From Pseudomonadota bacterium (GTDB lineage Bacteria > Pseudomonadota > Gammaproteobacteria > UBA5335): a stretch of DNA of 37,639 nucleotides. The notes beneath the pieces were generated by a model. The model was not told the origin of the DNA. It did no database searches and was given only the letters and a program-made list of their open reading frames with translations. Within the stretch, counting starts at the first letter, position 1. Each line of letters begins with the position of its first letter. Location of the stretch: positions 1 to 37,639 of the forward strand of contig JAXHTV010000008.1 of assembly GCA_034189865.1 (NCBI GenBank). The letters run 5' to 3'. Shown piece by piece: positions 259 through 7,856 of this stretch. The translations under genes were made by a program, and so were the position numbers.

Positions 259-1263
259 ATGGCGCTGAATACCAACACGAGCGGTATCATGTTAATGAAA
301 ACGCTATTGAACCGTGTCGCCCTTTGGTCTGTTGTGGCATTGGTTGGCTTCGTGATCTCGACCGAGTTCCGACCGGCCAAATATCATGCCCTGTTGTGTA
401 CTGACCCTGCCGCGGTGCAGGCCGGTGGGTGGAATTTCCGATACGACGGTTTTTACATCGGTGCTGACGGGTGTCTTTACGATCCAAGCAAAACGTCTCT
501 AGAAGATGTACCTCCCGTTATTGGCGACAATGCAACTACCGACCGGGTACCGTTGCTATACGTCAACGGGGCTAATCATCGCGTCGATTGGACCATGCCA
601 GAGCTTCATATCTTGGCCGAGGACAGCGAGCGGCCCGTGATCGGGATTTATAATGCCACCGCAGGTGGTCGCTTCCCCGACGCGATAACCGATAGTTTGG
701 CGGGTGACCAAAGTCGTGTCGTTGAAACACTCGAAACAATAATCTGGCAGGCGTTCGAGCGTGGAGAGGAAGTGCACCTCAAGGCGAACAGTCAGGGCGC
801 CGTGCACTCGTCAAACGCGTTGTTCGCCGTTTCAGCTCAGCTTCATAATCAGTTCGGTGCCGAAAGAGCCAAAGAACTGTTGTCCAAGGTTCATCTGGAA
901 ACTGCCGGTGGTGCAGCAACCCATTACCCCGACGGTCCGCGCTATCTTCACTACGTCAACGAACGAGATCCGGTCCCAAGGGCGGCAGGCGTTATGGTAA
1001 GCGGTAGCCAGCCAGGTACGAATGCCGTGATCGCGACGTTTACCGATCTCGATATCGATCCGTTAGAGCCCAAGTATCGCTGGGTCGGTCCACTGACCAT
1101 GCGTTTTATCGCCGCGCACGGTTTTATGGTTTATCAGTATCATCGGCGCCCGTTTGAGCGCGTTTACGCAGCCAGTCGCGATGGATCAGTGAGGTATGTG
1201 TCCTTGGATGGGGCGCCTATCGAGGTCGCGCAGCAGCAACTCGTATTGGATCGTTTCAACTAG
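259..1263 (+). CDS. Membrane-anchored alpha/beta-hydrolase-like protein, function unknown
   Basis: The product has 334 residues. A hydrophobic segment at about residues 17-34, just after a Lys/Arg pair, looks like a signal anchor, so the body is probably periplasmic. The rest resembles a serine hydrolase fold. There is a strand ending in YVNGANH (101-107), a nucleophile-elbow-like ANSQG with Ser178 (Ala in place of the usual first Gly), then NERDP with Asp237 and AAHGF with His287. That is the Ser-Asp-His order expected of an alpha/beta hydrolase; the triad is my inference. I do not recognise the family. The start is uncertain: ATG codons at 259, 289 and 295 share the frame and none has a good Shine-Dalgarno sequence. 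The later starts place the hydrophobic segment nearer the N-terminus. It converges with the TVP38-like gene 150 bases on. Confidence 0.65.
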   Translation: MALNTNTSGIMLMKTLLNRVALWSVVALVGFVISTEFRPAKYHALLCTDPAAVQAGGWNFRYDGFYIGADGCLYDPSKTSLEDVPPVIGDNATTDRVPLLYVNGANHRVDWTMPELHILAEDSERPVIGIYNATAGGRFPDAITDSLAGDQSRVVETLETIIWQAFERGEEVHLKANSQGAVHSSNALFAVSAQLHNQFGAERAKELLSKVHLETAGGAATHYPDGPRYLHYVNERDPVPRAAGVMVSGSQPGTNAVIATFTDLDIDPLEPKYRWVGPLTMRFIAAHGFMVYQYHRRPFERVYAASRDGSVRYVSLDGAPIEVAQQQLVLDRFN

Positions 1264-1413: not shown

Positions 1414-2184
1414 TCAGTCGGTACCAGCTCGTGTTTTTTCCCGGTGCGCGGAGATGCGGTCAAGTATCCTTGCGGCGATGGTTAAAGCGACCCCCAAAAA
1501 CATCGGGGCCAGTAGCTCCGGTGATATCCAGGAAATCTCTTCGTTGCGGGAGAGCATTTGAACAATCGTCCCTCCCAGCCAACTCCAAACCAAAATATGG
1601 GGGGTTGACCCCAAGGCAGTACCGACGAGAAAGTCTTTGATTCCTACGTTCATGCTGGCTAGGACCCAATTTACGGGCGGCAGCGCAAAAAAAATTAGCC
1701 GGGCGTAGGTGACGGTCTTCAGGCCATTTTTTTCGAAGTGAGCTTCGACCATCGGGATATATCGTCCGAAATGGCTTTTGAGGAACTCCCGGCCGAGGTA
1801 CTGGCTAACCCACCAGATCACGAACGTTGCAACGATTAGCGCCACGAACCCCATGGCCGCGGCGCCGGCCATGCCGTAGATCACCGCGGCAAAGGTAATG
1901 ACGACGATGGTGGGAATATTCAAGACGATGGCAACAATGCCGCCGAGACAAAATGCGACCGGGCCCAACAATCCCATGCGCTCTTCCGCAGCACGGACCT
2001 GTTCGATGCTTTGCCTCAGATTTTCATGGCTGAAATAGCTACCGATATCGAACCACTGATACAAAGCGGCGCCACAAGCCAAGAGGACAACTAAAGCGCC
2101 AAACCGAAGCAGTCGAAGACGGCTCGCGCGCCGGGGGTTTTTGACCGACGCGTTCTCCGGGAGTCGGGTATGCTCATCGTCCAT
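1414..2184 (-). CDS. TVP38/TMEM64 family (VTT domain) membrane protein
   Basis: The 256-residue protein has a cytoplasmic-looking, Arg-rich N-terminus, a first membrane segment at about 25-46 and a cluster of hydrophobic segments between about 72 and 245. The middle carries the features of the VTT/SNARE-associated (DedA-related) domain: a glycine-rich pair of helices with LNIPTIVV and FAAVIYG, a loop with YLGREF, then RLIFFALPPVNWVLA with the re-entrant Pro-rich motif. Members of this superfamily act in lipid scrambling or transport across the inner membrane; the substrate here cannot be read from sequence. The usual length (about 200-260) is matched. A GGAG about 12 bases upstream supports the ATG at 2184. 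It lies downstream of, and on the same strand as, the glycosyltransferase-sulfotransferase pair, 93 bases after the sulfotransferase stop, so it may be co-transcribed with them. Confidence 0.85.
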   Translation of the reverse strand: MDDEHTRLPENASVKNPRRASRLRLLRFGALVVLLACGAALYQWFDIGSYFSHENLRQSIEQVRAAEERMGLLGPVAFCLGGIVAIVLNIPTIVVITFAAVIYGMAGAAAMGFVALIVATFVIWWVSQYLGREFLKSHFGRYIPMVEAHFEKNGLKTVTYARLIFFALPPVNWVLASMNVGIKDFLVGTALGSTPHILVWSWLGGTIVQMLSRNEEISWISPELLAPMFLGVALTIAARILDRISAHREKTRAGTD

Positions 2185-2277: not shown

Positions 2278-3297
2278 CTAGGAGGCGCGTGCTCCAAAGT
2301 GTTTGATCTTCTTTGAGAGTCGCTTCATGAAACGATCCTCGTAGGATCGGAGGGTGTCGTTGAGATGTCCCTTGCGAGGCTTTGGAATGATCGCATCAGG
2401 CGGCGTTACGAAGGGTAAATCCAAGAACGCTTGCAATTCCGCGAGGTGTTGCTTGGGCGCCTCGTTGAAGTTCTGATAGTCGATGGCGAATACGTTCTCT
2501 GCGGGCAGCTCTTCGATGGCTCGATAGTAGCCTTCCAGTTCCTTCTGTACGGTCCACGAGCAGATTTGTCGCAGAATAAAAGCGTACAGTCCGTCGCCGG
2601 TGACTTTCTTGATGCCGCGAACCAGTTTCCACAATGCGTAAATCGCATTCTTTGTGATGCGGTCGCCCGGTACCTTGAAGTCATCGATGAGCATGGTCTG
2701 AAAAGGTTGTGGCCCCGTCATGAGAGCCAATGCGGCATTGATTTGGCTATTCAGGATGAAAATGGGGTCCCGAGTGATGTAGATGAAACGTGCGTTGGGA
2801 AACCACTCCAGAATTTGCTTTGCTTTCCCCGTGTCCCAAGGGTTCTTGAGCAAAATGGCTTGTGCTTCGGGGTGGAGAAAGGCAAGTTTCTTGCAAATTT
2901 GAGTAAAATAATCTTTGTTATTCTCGCTGACGGAAATCTGGTAGCTCCGGTTGCGAAGCATCCATCCGTACTCCTCCACGGTCGTGTCTTCAACGTAGAC
3001 GGAGTCCAGCTTGCGGTCGGTGATACCGAGTGCTCGGAACAGTCGATTCAGCGTTGCCCGATCGGATTCCTCGCCCCCCTCGATGGCATTTTTGAGCAGC
3101 CGATCATAGTAGAAGATATGATAGAGCGTCAGATTAGCGACGGGAAAGCATTTGGAGACGGAATCGTACAGGAAAGTCGTCCCAGAACGGTGGAGACCCA
3201 TAATAAAAACCGGACGGATCTCGATGTCATCCAATCGATCGAGATATGCATCGTCCTCGTGTCGCCCGGGAAATCCGGGGTCGAATGGGAATTTCAT
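2278..3297 (-). CDS. PAPS-dependent sulfotransferase
   Basis: This 339-residue protein belongs to the sulfotransferase family that transfers sulfate from PAPS to a hydroxyl acceptor. The N-terminal phosphosulfate loop is visible as GLHRSGTT (residues 34-41). The 3'-phosphate site follows as YITRDP with Arg176 and a Ser at 184, and LKNPWD with Lys151 precedes it. The frame is open back to 3405, but that start would overlap the upstream glycosyltransferase. The ATG at 3297 has a clear GGAG seven bases upstream and leaves a 37-base gap, so I choose it. With the glycosyltransferase just upstream it probably forms a two-gene operon, suggesting that a glycosylated lipid or small molecule is sulfated. 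The acceptor is unknown. Sulfated glycolipids would be one fit, but that is inference. Confidence 0.87.
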   Translation of the reverse strand: MKFPFDPGFPGRHEDDAYLDRLDDIEIRPVFIMGLHRSGTTFLYDSVSKCFPVANLTLYHIFYYDRLLKNAIEGGEESDRATLNRLFRALGITDRKLDSVYVEDTTVEEYGWMLRNRSYQISVSENNKDYFTQICKKLAFLHPEAQAILLKNPWDTGKAKQILEWFPNARFIYITRDPIFILNSQINAALALMTGPQPFQTMLIDDFKVPGDRITKNAIYALWKLVRGIKKVTGDGLYAFILRQICSWTVQKELEGYYRAIEELPAENVFAIDYQNFNEAPKQHLAELQAFLDLPFVTPPDAIIPKPRKGHLNDTLRSYEDRFMKRLSKKIKHFGARAS

Positions 3298-3334
3298 ACT
3301 TTCTCCGTAAAGCGATGGTTGGGGACTCGGCAAA

Positions 3335-4603
3335 TTATGCCACTTTGGTTGCCGACGTTGTGCTGTTCCCGCCATACATATGATATAAAATTTCATCCGC
3401 CGCACGCTGATAGCCGCCGATCTTGAGAGAAGCCCCCAGTTCCTTCGAACTTTCCCGATAATCCGGTTTGCTTAGGATCTCGTCGACGCTTTGGCGGAGC
3501 CGCTCTGGCGTGGCCATGTTTGGCATTAACATCACCCCCGCGCCTAGACGAGAAATCCTCAGGGCGCTGAACGCCTGTTCCACCTGCTGCGGAACCATGA
3601 CCAGCGGAACATTATAGTATAGGCTCTCATTGATACTATTCATGCCGCCATGGCTGACAAATGCGTCAGCTGTCTGGAGAACATCCAATTGGGGCACGCG
3701 AGCCTTGACGGTGAAGTTCTCCGGGATAGGTCCGAGTTGTTTGATATCGGTCCGGTCGCCGATGGACATGATGACTTGGTACGGTCGGTCACCAAACGCA
3801 CGAATACAGTTGACGTAAAAGTCAGTGCACATGTTGTGCACGCTTCCCAGCGATACATAGATGAGCGGTTGTCCCGGCTGTCTATGGATATCAAGCGAGT
3901 CGTTGTCCCGCTTCTCGGGTACAGAAGCACCAACGAATTTGACGTTATCGCCTAACTTCTCTGCCTCGGGTTGATAGAGTGGCGAGGTCACCGCGATGGT
4001 CAATTGCTCTTTATCGTCCAGCAGTTGCTTGAGAAGCGGGAATATTCCGGGATATTCCATGCCCAGCCCGGTGACGATGTCCGCTATTCGTCGTCGGGCA
4101 CCGATAATCTCCGGAATGATTGAAATAACAGAGGATAATCGTGTCGATTTCCCGACCATTCGGAAAAGCTTGAAGGAAAACCAATGCTTGACGGATTTAA
4201 GGACAGTGGGTGTCACCAGCACGTGGGTGACGAATCGGACTCCCGGCACGTTCAATCTCATCGCGAGCAACTGACCCCAGGGGGCGCAGGTGTCATAGAT
4301 AATGTAGTCCGGTTTGTCTTCCTGCATCTGTTGTAACAAACCCAGTACGCAGGACTCAGTCAGTTCGAACAGCTTGCTTCCCAGAGCGACCAAATCGGAC
4401 GCGATCTCGGTGGGATGGTCGTATTCGAAGAAGGGTTGATAACCGCGGAACGTGGCGCCGAGCGCTTCAATTTTTTGCCGACTTTTTTCGTCGGCGTAGT
4501 AGATAACTTCCTCACCTCGACTGATGAGTTCGGCGACGATTCCTAGTGACGGGTTGATGTGGCCTACGGCTCCTGGAAGGTTAAAAAAAACAGCCTTGCC
4601 CAT
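3335..4603 (-). CDS. MGT/UGT-type (GT1 family) glycosyltransferase
   Basis: The 422-residue protein has the two Rossmann-like halves of GT-B glycosyltransferases of family GT1 (macrolide glycosyltransferase/UDP-glucuronosyltransferase type). The N-terminal acceptor half begins with FFNLPGAVGHINPSL, whose His15 sits where the catalytic base lies in this family. The donor half contains YVSLGSVHN (249-257), VPQLDVL, and the nucleotide-sugar signature SHGGMNSINE at 317-326, followed by PLVMVPQQVEQ. It transfers a sugar from a nucleotide sugar to a small hydrophobic acceptor; the exact sugar and acceptor are not predictable. GAGGTG about 5 bases upstream supports the ATG at 4603. Its stop lies 37 bases before the sulfotransferase start. 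The upstream leader carries several perfect inverted repeats described separately. Confidence 0.88.
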   Translation of the reverse strand: MGKAVFFNLPGAVGHINPSLGIVAELISRGEEVIYYADEKSRQKIEALGATFRGYQPFFEYDHPTEIASDLVALGSKLFELTESCVLGLLQQMQEDKPDYIIYDTCAPWGQLLAMRLNVPGVRFVTHVLVTPTVLKSVKHWFSFKLFRMVGKSTRLSSVISIIPEIIGARRRIADIVTGLGMEYPGIFPLLKQLLDDKEQLTIAVTSPLYQPEAEKLGDNVKFVGASVPEKRDNDSLDIHRQPGQPLIYVSLGSVHNMCTDFYVNCIRAFGDRPYQVIMSIGDRTDIKQLGPIPENFTVKARVPQLDVLQTADAFVSHGGMNSINESLYYNVPLVMVPQQVEQAFSALRISRLGAGVMLMPNMATPERLRQSVDEILSKPDYRESSKELGASLKIGGYQRAADEILYHMYGGNSTTSATKVA

Positions 4604-7097: not shown

Positions 7098-7856
7098 TCA
7101 GCGTTTTTCTAGCCGCATCACTTGGGTGCTAAACCGTCCGTCGGAGTGCAACTTGATCTGGCGCCATCCCGGCTGGCTGTCTGCCAGAGCGAAACAATCG
7201 CTGCGGGGCAAGAATTGAGCGGCAGTCGAAGGGCAGCCAAACATCGCCGGCGAACTATCTGGGCTCTCGAACGTTTGATGTATGTGCCCAAAAAACACTG
7301 CTCGGAGTTCGGGTCGTCCACGAATTGAGCGGATGAAATCATCCTTATTTGCCAGCCCGATTTCGTCCAGCCAAGCGCAACCTGTCAAGACCGGCGGATG
7401 GTGGAGAAAGATCGCTACGGGGTGGTCGAGTGGGGCTGACAGCATCTGGCGGATGCAAGCCATGTCATCCGGGTCGATTATGCCGTGATCGTGGCCGCCA
7501 ACGGTCGTGTTCAGCGCGATCAGTCGCCAGTCGCCCAGGCGCAACAGAGTAGGGGTGCTATGACATTGGACTCCTAAGACGTTCTGCGCCCGCTCGGCAT
7601 GATCGTGGTTACCGAGCAGGTAATGCGCTTCGATCCCAGTTGCGTCGACCAGCCGTTTTAAGCGCGTGTAAGCTTCCGTGCTGCCGTCGTCGGAGAGATC
7701 CCCGGTGAGTATGATGAGGTCAGGTTGGGCGAGGTTTACGGCGGCGAAGACCTCTTGTAGGGATCGATCAGGGGTGCAGTTCCACGGTCCATCGTCAGGA
7801 CGCTTACGGAGGTGGCAGTCACTGATTTGAATGATGGTGTGGGCAGGTGAAGGCAT
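7098..7856 (-). CDS. cpdA: CpdA-like metallophosphoesterase (3',5'-cyclic AMP phosphodiesterase)
   Basis: The 252-residue protein has all metal-binding blocks of the calcineurin-like phosphoesterase fold: SDCHL (Asp13, His15), GDLSDD (Asp53), GNHD (Asn83, His84), FLHHPP (His152/153) and FGHIHQ (His191, His193). The length, the N-terminal IIQISDCHL and the block FLHHPPVLTGCAWLDEIGL match the class III cyclic-nucleotide phosphodiesterase CpdA, which hydrolyses cAMP in the cytoplasm and tunes CRP signalling. Related enzymes act on other phosphodiesters, so the substrate is inferred. The start at 7856 lacks a strong Shine-Dalgarno but fits the conserved N-terminus. It begins 63 bases after the unknown gene on the same strand and is probably co-transcribed with it. 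Confidence 0.85.
   Translation of the reverse strand: MPSPAHTIIQISDCHLRKRPDDGPWNCTPDRSLQEVFAAVNLAQPDLIILTGDLSDDGSTEAYTRLKRLVDATGIEAHYLLGNHDHAERAQNVLGVQCHSTPTLLRLGDWRLIALNTTVGGHDHGIIDPDDMACIRQMLSAPLDHPVAIFLHHPPVLTGCAWLDEIGLANKDDFIRSIRGRPELRAVFFGHIHQTFESPDSSPAMFGCPSTAAQFLPRSDCFALADSQPGWRQIKLHSDGRFSTQVMRLEKR

Follow-up and report, generated by a model that had tools for sequence, protein, structure and literature searches.

A conserved glycosyltransferase-sulfotransferase-VTT operon in an uncultured gammaproteobacterium and its possible product, a sulfated glycoside

Judged by gene order and sequence, the genes for an MGT-type glycosyltransferase (GT), a PAPS-type sulfotransferase (ST) and a VTT-domain membrane protein (VTT) form a real, conserved operon in a gammaproteobacterial genome (G000; 2.9 Mb, 72 contigs, 99.4% complete). 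They are located in the window, that is, the whole stretch of DNA analysed (positions 1 to 37,639), on contig C8. Taken singly, the proteins belong to ordinary families, and it is the three-gene set and its recurrence that make the locus of interest. The best reading, to which we assign a probability of about 0.5, is that of an operon whose dedicated product is a sulfated glycoside, probably a lipid, and whose VTT protein is scramblase-like. We prefer it because the three genes are kept as a unit, because ST and GT genes recur together, and because the VTT gene tracks that of the ST.

Organization and conservation of the operon

The features of the locus are collected in Table 1. The first-pass annotation had described a GT gene followed after 37 bases by an ST gene with intact motifs and then by a VTT gene, all on one strand, and the coordinates and family scores agree with it. 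The listed ST reading frame opens at a GTG (3405) inside the GT gene, but the conserved start, as seen in the alignment with relatives, is the ATG at 3297 (MKFPFDPGFP), preceded by a purine-rich stretch; since homologues align from this codon, the GT-ST gap is 37 bases and the ST has 339 residues. The ST-VTT gap is 93 bases, and no terminator-like site was listed within either gap of the window.

Table 1. Features of the locus in the window
Feature	Coordinates	Strand	Length (aa)	Family	Remarks
MGT-type (GT1) glycosyltransferase	3335-4603	-	422	TIGR01426	ATG start; first in trio
PAPS-type sulfotransferase	2278-3297	-	339	Sulfotransfer_3	Start at ATG 3297; second in trio
VTT (DedA-superfamily) membrane protein	1414-2184	-	256	PF09335	Third in trio
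Possible satellite	259-1263	+	334		Convergent to trio; membership in the system uncertain

Upstream of the trio lie genes for an aldehyde dehydrogenase, a CpdA-like phosphoesterase, a protein without assignment, MTHFR, AhcY and MetK. The calcineurin-like gene at 7098-7856 was considered as a lipid-remodelling phosphatase and rejected, its nearest model being CpdA at a score below the cut-off (160.5 vs 225); it was also left out of the system because the aldehyde dehydrogenase gene separates it from the GT gene. The possible satellite matched no family in Pfam or NCBIfam. Its homologues are likewise convergent to the ST locus in the relatives G002 and NORP74 (tblastn identities of 53% at L041 and 49% at L094), and it contains an N-S-Q-G-A stretch that, read by eye, may be a hydrolase elbow.

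The search for relatives covered 95 related genomes, with G001 to G005 belonging to the same family as G000. GT relatives were found in 16 of the 95 and ST matches in nine (E <= 0.001), the latter being weak beyond G002-G005, G018 and G021. Close ST relatives, 52-61% identical, are encoded by G002-G005 and by G018, of the same class; the G021 relative is 39% identical. In G002, G003, G004 and G005 the genes keep the order GT-ST-VTT on the same strand, with ST identities of 60-62% and ST-VTT gaps of 3, -4, -4 and -1 bases, respectively, so that in three of them the genes overlap by 1-4 bases. The GT gene of G004 is truncated by a contig end, and the VTT of this genome, as well as the GT of G001, was identified by tblastn and HMM. 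Because the trio is kept in these four other genomes of the family, its arrangement is beyond chance. G001 holds the GT gene at the syntenic place, with neither an ST nor a VTT gene beside it.

A single-sequence ST query of genome contigs and viral contigs gave no relatives, and the wider set of ST loci was found by an alignment (profile) query of genome contigs. The profile scan of named genomes yielded 25 ST loci, five of them duplicating G003, G004, G005, G018 and G021. An ST more than 50% identical to that of the window is present in ten genomes (G000, G002-G005, G018/UBA5859, NORP74, UBA3067, DC_out226 and NORP332). A VTT gene adjoins it in eight of the ten and a GT gene in six, hence the bond between ST and VTT is at least as strong as that between ST and GT. 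In the metagenome-assembled genomes UBA3067, DC_out226 and NORP332 the VTT gene is immediately upstream of the ST gene, the reverse of the window order, and a contig end cuts at least one side of the locus. In the Thiotrichaceae MAG UBA5859 the ST gene is followed by a GT gene 61 bases away by called frames, in which the contig ends; NORP74 encodes an ST (62%) with neither GT nor VTT inside 8 kb. At the G021/WOFB30 locus the ST gene is followed by that of a second, weak ST (L109 7452-8654; PF13469 28 bits, cut-off 27) and then by a VTT gene, which is thus two genes downstream. The NORP332 ST (L112 812-1864) consists of three same-frame open pieces split by single in-frame stops, which may reflect a pseudogene, a sequencing error or readthrough.

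ST and GT genes are also paired independently of the trio. Contig C14 of G000 (L048 14468-16589) carries a second pair, ST then GT, again with a 37-base gap and with the GT gene cut by the contig end. Over 179 residues its ST (PF13469 124 bits) shares 23% identity with that of the window, and its MGT-type GT falls in a separate clade from the window GT; with three GTs in the genome, a same-strand GT neighbour for one ST is expected by chance at about 0.001. A third ST of G000 is represented both at the start of L047 (C43) and at the end of L093 (C55), and since both ends encode the same 40 residues, the two contigs probably join. Two further neighbourhoods were excluded from the count: in the archaeal locus L113 a PF13528 glycosyltransferase gene next to the ST gene is convergent to it, and at L116 the neighbour looked GT-like by eye and matched no Pfam family.

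A parallel arrangement was found in Zhongshania, Spongiibacter, Neomelitea and Microbulbifer, where all ten loci (L101-L108, L110 and L111) encode, in this order, an ST 40-44% identical to that of the window, a long protein belonging to one cluster, and a GT-profile match. The long protein of L104 is a one-module NRPS with condensation, adenylation, carrier and thioesterase domains (C-A-T-TE), and that of L111 matches the same NRPS families in an NCBIfam scan only. In the two of the ten loci that were scanned, L104 and L101, the GT was confirmed with Pfam and a phosphopantetheinyl transferase gene is next. The adenylation code, read by eye, is D-I-L-Q-L-G-L-I-W in most of the L101-L111 loci, presumably specifying glycine. 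These loci share with the window an ST homologue and a GT, but differ from it in having the NRPS, a GT of another subfamily and no VTT match. As their GT is of a different subfamily, we take them as parallel evidence from another pathway. A search of G000 for condensation domains returned no match, which places this genome outside the Spongiibacteraceae-type NRPS system.

Properties of the three proteins

The window ST scores above the cut-offs of both Sulfotransfer_3 (PF13469; 74.1 bits, cut-off 27) and Sulfotransfer_1 (27.6 bits, cut-off 22). The motif GLHRSGT (R37 S38 G39 T40) and residues R176, P178 and S184 are invariant in two alignments of homologues (18 of 18 and 20 of 20); we take RSGT to be the 5'-phosphosulfate loop and R176...S184 the 3'-phosphate site. 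Compared with solved structures by sequence alone the protein gave no match. Its AF2 model, built from 20 sequences (pLDDT 88.8, pTM 0.87), has the PAPS-type sulfotransferase fold: the best hit of a fold search was STF9 of Mycobacterium avium (2z6v; Z 19.5, rmsd 3.4 over 275 residues, 16% identical), followed by STF1 of M. tuberculosis (2zq5; Z 18.7) and then by tyrosylprotein and heparan sulfotransferases at Z 14.3 and below. The two mycobacterial enzymes thus are the nearest folds and share the PAPS-type binding-loop motif, but they are only 16-17% identical to the window ST and come from another phylum. An amphipathic, basic helix begins at about residue 212 of the model (moment 0.51), with higher moments near the C-terminus, and might weakly suggest a membrane-near substrate. 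No descent was drawn from the ST tree, since it contains no well-supported clade with the window ST and places a divergent sequence from contig C29 of G000 on a branch of length 10.

The GT passes the curated cut-off of the MGT subfamily (TIGR01426; 309.2 bits, cut-off 260) and also matches EryCIII-like_C and UDPGT. Its nearest solved chain is 10zg (E 1.4e-68), with YjiC chains matching at about 1e-54, and in the GT tree its clade (support 99/99) also contains the GTs linked to an ST in G002-G005 and the one at the syntenic place in G001. It resembles in this way the macrolide-family enzymes of the Bacillus YjiC and OleD type. However, it is far below the cut-offs for the macrolide-inactivating Mgt (163.2 bits vs 700) and for the self-resistance enzyme OleI (151.9 vs 700). 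Because the macrolide family takes in detoxifying enzymes, the acceptor of the GT could be something other than a lipid.

The VTT protein scores 42.4 bits with PF09335 (cut-off 33.9) and fails the model of the undecaprenyl-phosphate transporter UptA (NF052604; 29.3 bits vs 250). Its structure model (pLDDT 78, pTM 0.62) has two broken helices, and the sequence lacks acidic residues around the first re-entrant helix and has a single arginine at the second. According to PMC10127716, members of the COG0398 branch of the DedA superfamily lack acidic residues at the first re-entrant helix and have at most one of two basic residues at the second; they are judged there unlikely to be undecaprenyl phosphate flippases and are likened to eukaryotic scramblases, their function being left unresolved. 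By its VTT domain and this residue pattern, the window protein looks more like the scramblase-like COG0398 branch than like the undecaprenyl-phosphate flippases. The portion of PMC10127716 considered here, unlike the present loci, does not link the branch with sulfotransferases.

Sulfate donor and acceptor

The first-pass annotation had proposed a check for PAPS-synthesis genes elsewhere in the genome, and in this respect the assembly as it stands speaks against the sulfated-glycoside reading. APS kinase had no match in the G000 assembly in a search that was positive in 11 of 14 control genomes, and a strong match (frames of 552-606 aa) is present in all five family relatives; the ATP sulfurylase of the relatives (Sat; queried with the fused-type Sat-CysC of G005) had no match in G000 either. 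The CysH encoded on contig C12 is nevertheless of the PAPS-reductase type (TIGR02057; 297 bits, cut-off 254.2). In G002 and G005 the Sat-CysC gene lies by PhzF-like and malic-enzyme-like genes, with a transporter gene near in G002 (names given by eye). At the syntenic place in G000 the malic-enzyme-like gene is cut by the end of contig C53, and close orthologues of the transporter and of the PhzF-like protein were not found in this genome, the PhzF-like gene being also absent from G001. Given the PAPS-type CysH and the contig break at the syntenic place, an assembly gap would be the simplest account of the missing APS kinase, likely but unproven.

Contig C53 also holds a frame (L089; 607-2643, minus strand) in which an APS-reductase-type domain (TIGR02055; 237.9 bits, cut-off 235.3) is joined to a UDP-sulfoquinovose-synthase-like domain (347 bits, cut-off 575). 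Its neighbours are a NusG-family gene and a gene for a flippase-like protein, by eye a polysaccharide flippase. Such a fusion would tie the supply of sulfite to sulfoquinovose. On contig C205 of G004, a frame of 595 aa contains a reductase of that family too.

Terpenoid acceptors such as carotenoids and hopanoids, which had been named as candidates for the GT, are weakened by the gene content of G000. The genome encodes one protein of the squalene/phytoene-synthase family (SQS_PSY), below every curated NCBIfam cut-off tried: it scores 49.5-59.3 bits with the CrtB models (cut-offs 480-550), as would bear on a CrtX-like carotenoid glycoside, and, for the hopanoid pair HpnC and HpnD, 76.4 (cut-off 250.45) and 191 bits (cut-off 278.6). 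Reading by eye the genes beside it, no other terpenoid gene was seen. Searched with Pfam and NCBIfam, none of the genes next to the trio hints at an aglycone or an acceptor pathway.

Proposed pathway and its alternatives

From the gene set we infer every part of the following pathway: the reactions, the acceptor, the order of the steps, the sulfation and the transport. With a nucleotide sugar as donor, the MGT-type GT would first attach a hexose, at the cytoplasmic face, to a hydroxyl group of an acceptor that is small and hydrophobic. The ST would then use PAPS to sulfate a hydroxyl of the GT product, most likely one on the sugar, and the VTT protein may aid the resulting anionic glycolipid in crossing or spreading in the inner membrane. 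The sulfated glycoside made at the membrane, as proposed in the first-pass annotation, thus gains from the conserved unit, from STs beside GTs of differing subfamilies and from the tracking of ST by VTT, but finds no support for its terpenoid acceptors. The sulfated glycolipids known best are mycobacterial: in sulfolipid-1 (Stf0) and the sulfated glycopeptidolipids a lipid carries a sugar, which in turn is sulfated, and export is dedicated. The likeness to the trio lies in this scheme; the trio differs in having no adjacent acyltransferase, PKS or MmpL gene, and its kinship in sequence is limited to the fold.

Lipid and soluble metabolite cannot be told apart as the product from sequence, and the alternative to be taken most seriously, though we hold it somewhat unlikely, is that the GT and ST decorate the diffusible aglycone of a soluble or secreted secondary metabolite, the VTT protein being a co-transcribed general scramblase. 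It would agree with the placement of the GT in the MGT family and with the natural-product-like set of one-module NRPS, GT and phosphopantetheinyl transferase around ST relatives. However, G000 is devoid of condensation domains, other biosynthetic enzymes are absent beside the trio, and the link of ST to VTT is no weaker than that to GT. The GT and ST could also be merely co-expressed and act on separate substrates, the ST for example on a quinone or hydroxylated lipid, as is the case for mycobacterial Stf3, and the GT glucosylating or inactivating something else. This is what the ST without GT in NORP74 and the GT without ST at the syntenic locus of G001 might indicate; the linkage of ST and GT in several arrangements, involving unrelated ST and GT subfamilies, argues against it, and we consider it quite improbable.

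The two remaining alternatives concern sulfur supply, and both appear very improbable. One would have the GT use UDP-sulfoquinovose from the SqdB-like protein of contig C53, with the ST adding a second acidic group or being unrelated; the fused frame exists in G000, but on another contig than the trio, beside genes of the NusG family and for a flippase-like protein, and with its synthase part under the curated cut-off. The other holds that the pathway does not run in this organism because PAPS is lacking, as could be concluded from the lack of APS kinase and relative-type Sat matches in so complete an assembly. Against it stand a CysH that requires PAPS, the gap-like pattern at the end of C53, where neighbours of the Sat-CysC block are missing too, and the intact ST motifs. 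We retain as the best reading the sulfated glycoside, with a step at the membrane.

A bolder version, which we consider rather doubtful, is that the sulfated glycolipid made by these uncultured, marine-type Gammaproteobacteria is a new one and has its own COG0398-like DedA transporter, ST and GT being a reusable module whose aglycones differ by lineage. If the transporter reading were true, the VTT protein would be, to our knowledge, the first bacterial member of the COG0398 branch to have a particular lipid as its substrate. Neither the trio nor the Spongiibacteraceae ST-NRPS-GT locus was found described in the open-licence papers searched. The conserved ST-VTT pairing offers a concrete gene pair for study, and the cultured genera Zhongshania, Spongiibacter and Microbulbifer carry the parallel ST-NRPS-GT locus. 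Should the proposed pathway be true, the operon would provide a handle both on the sulfated lipids or glycosides that Gammaproteobacteria produce and on the substrates moved by bacterial COG0398-type DedA proteins.
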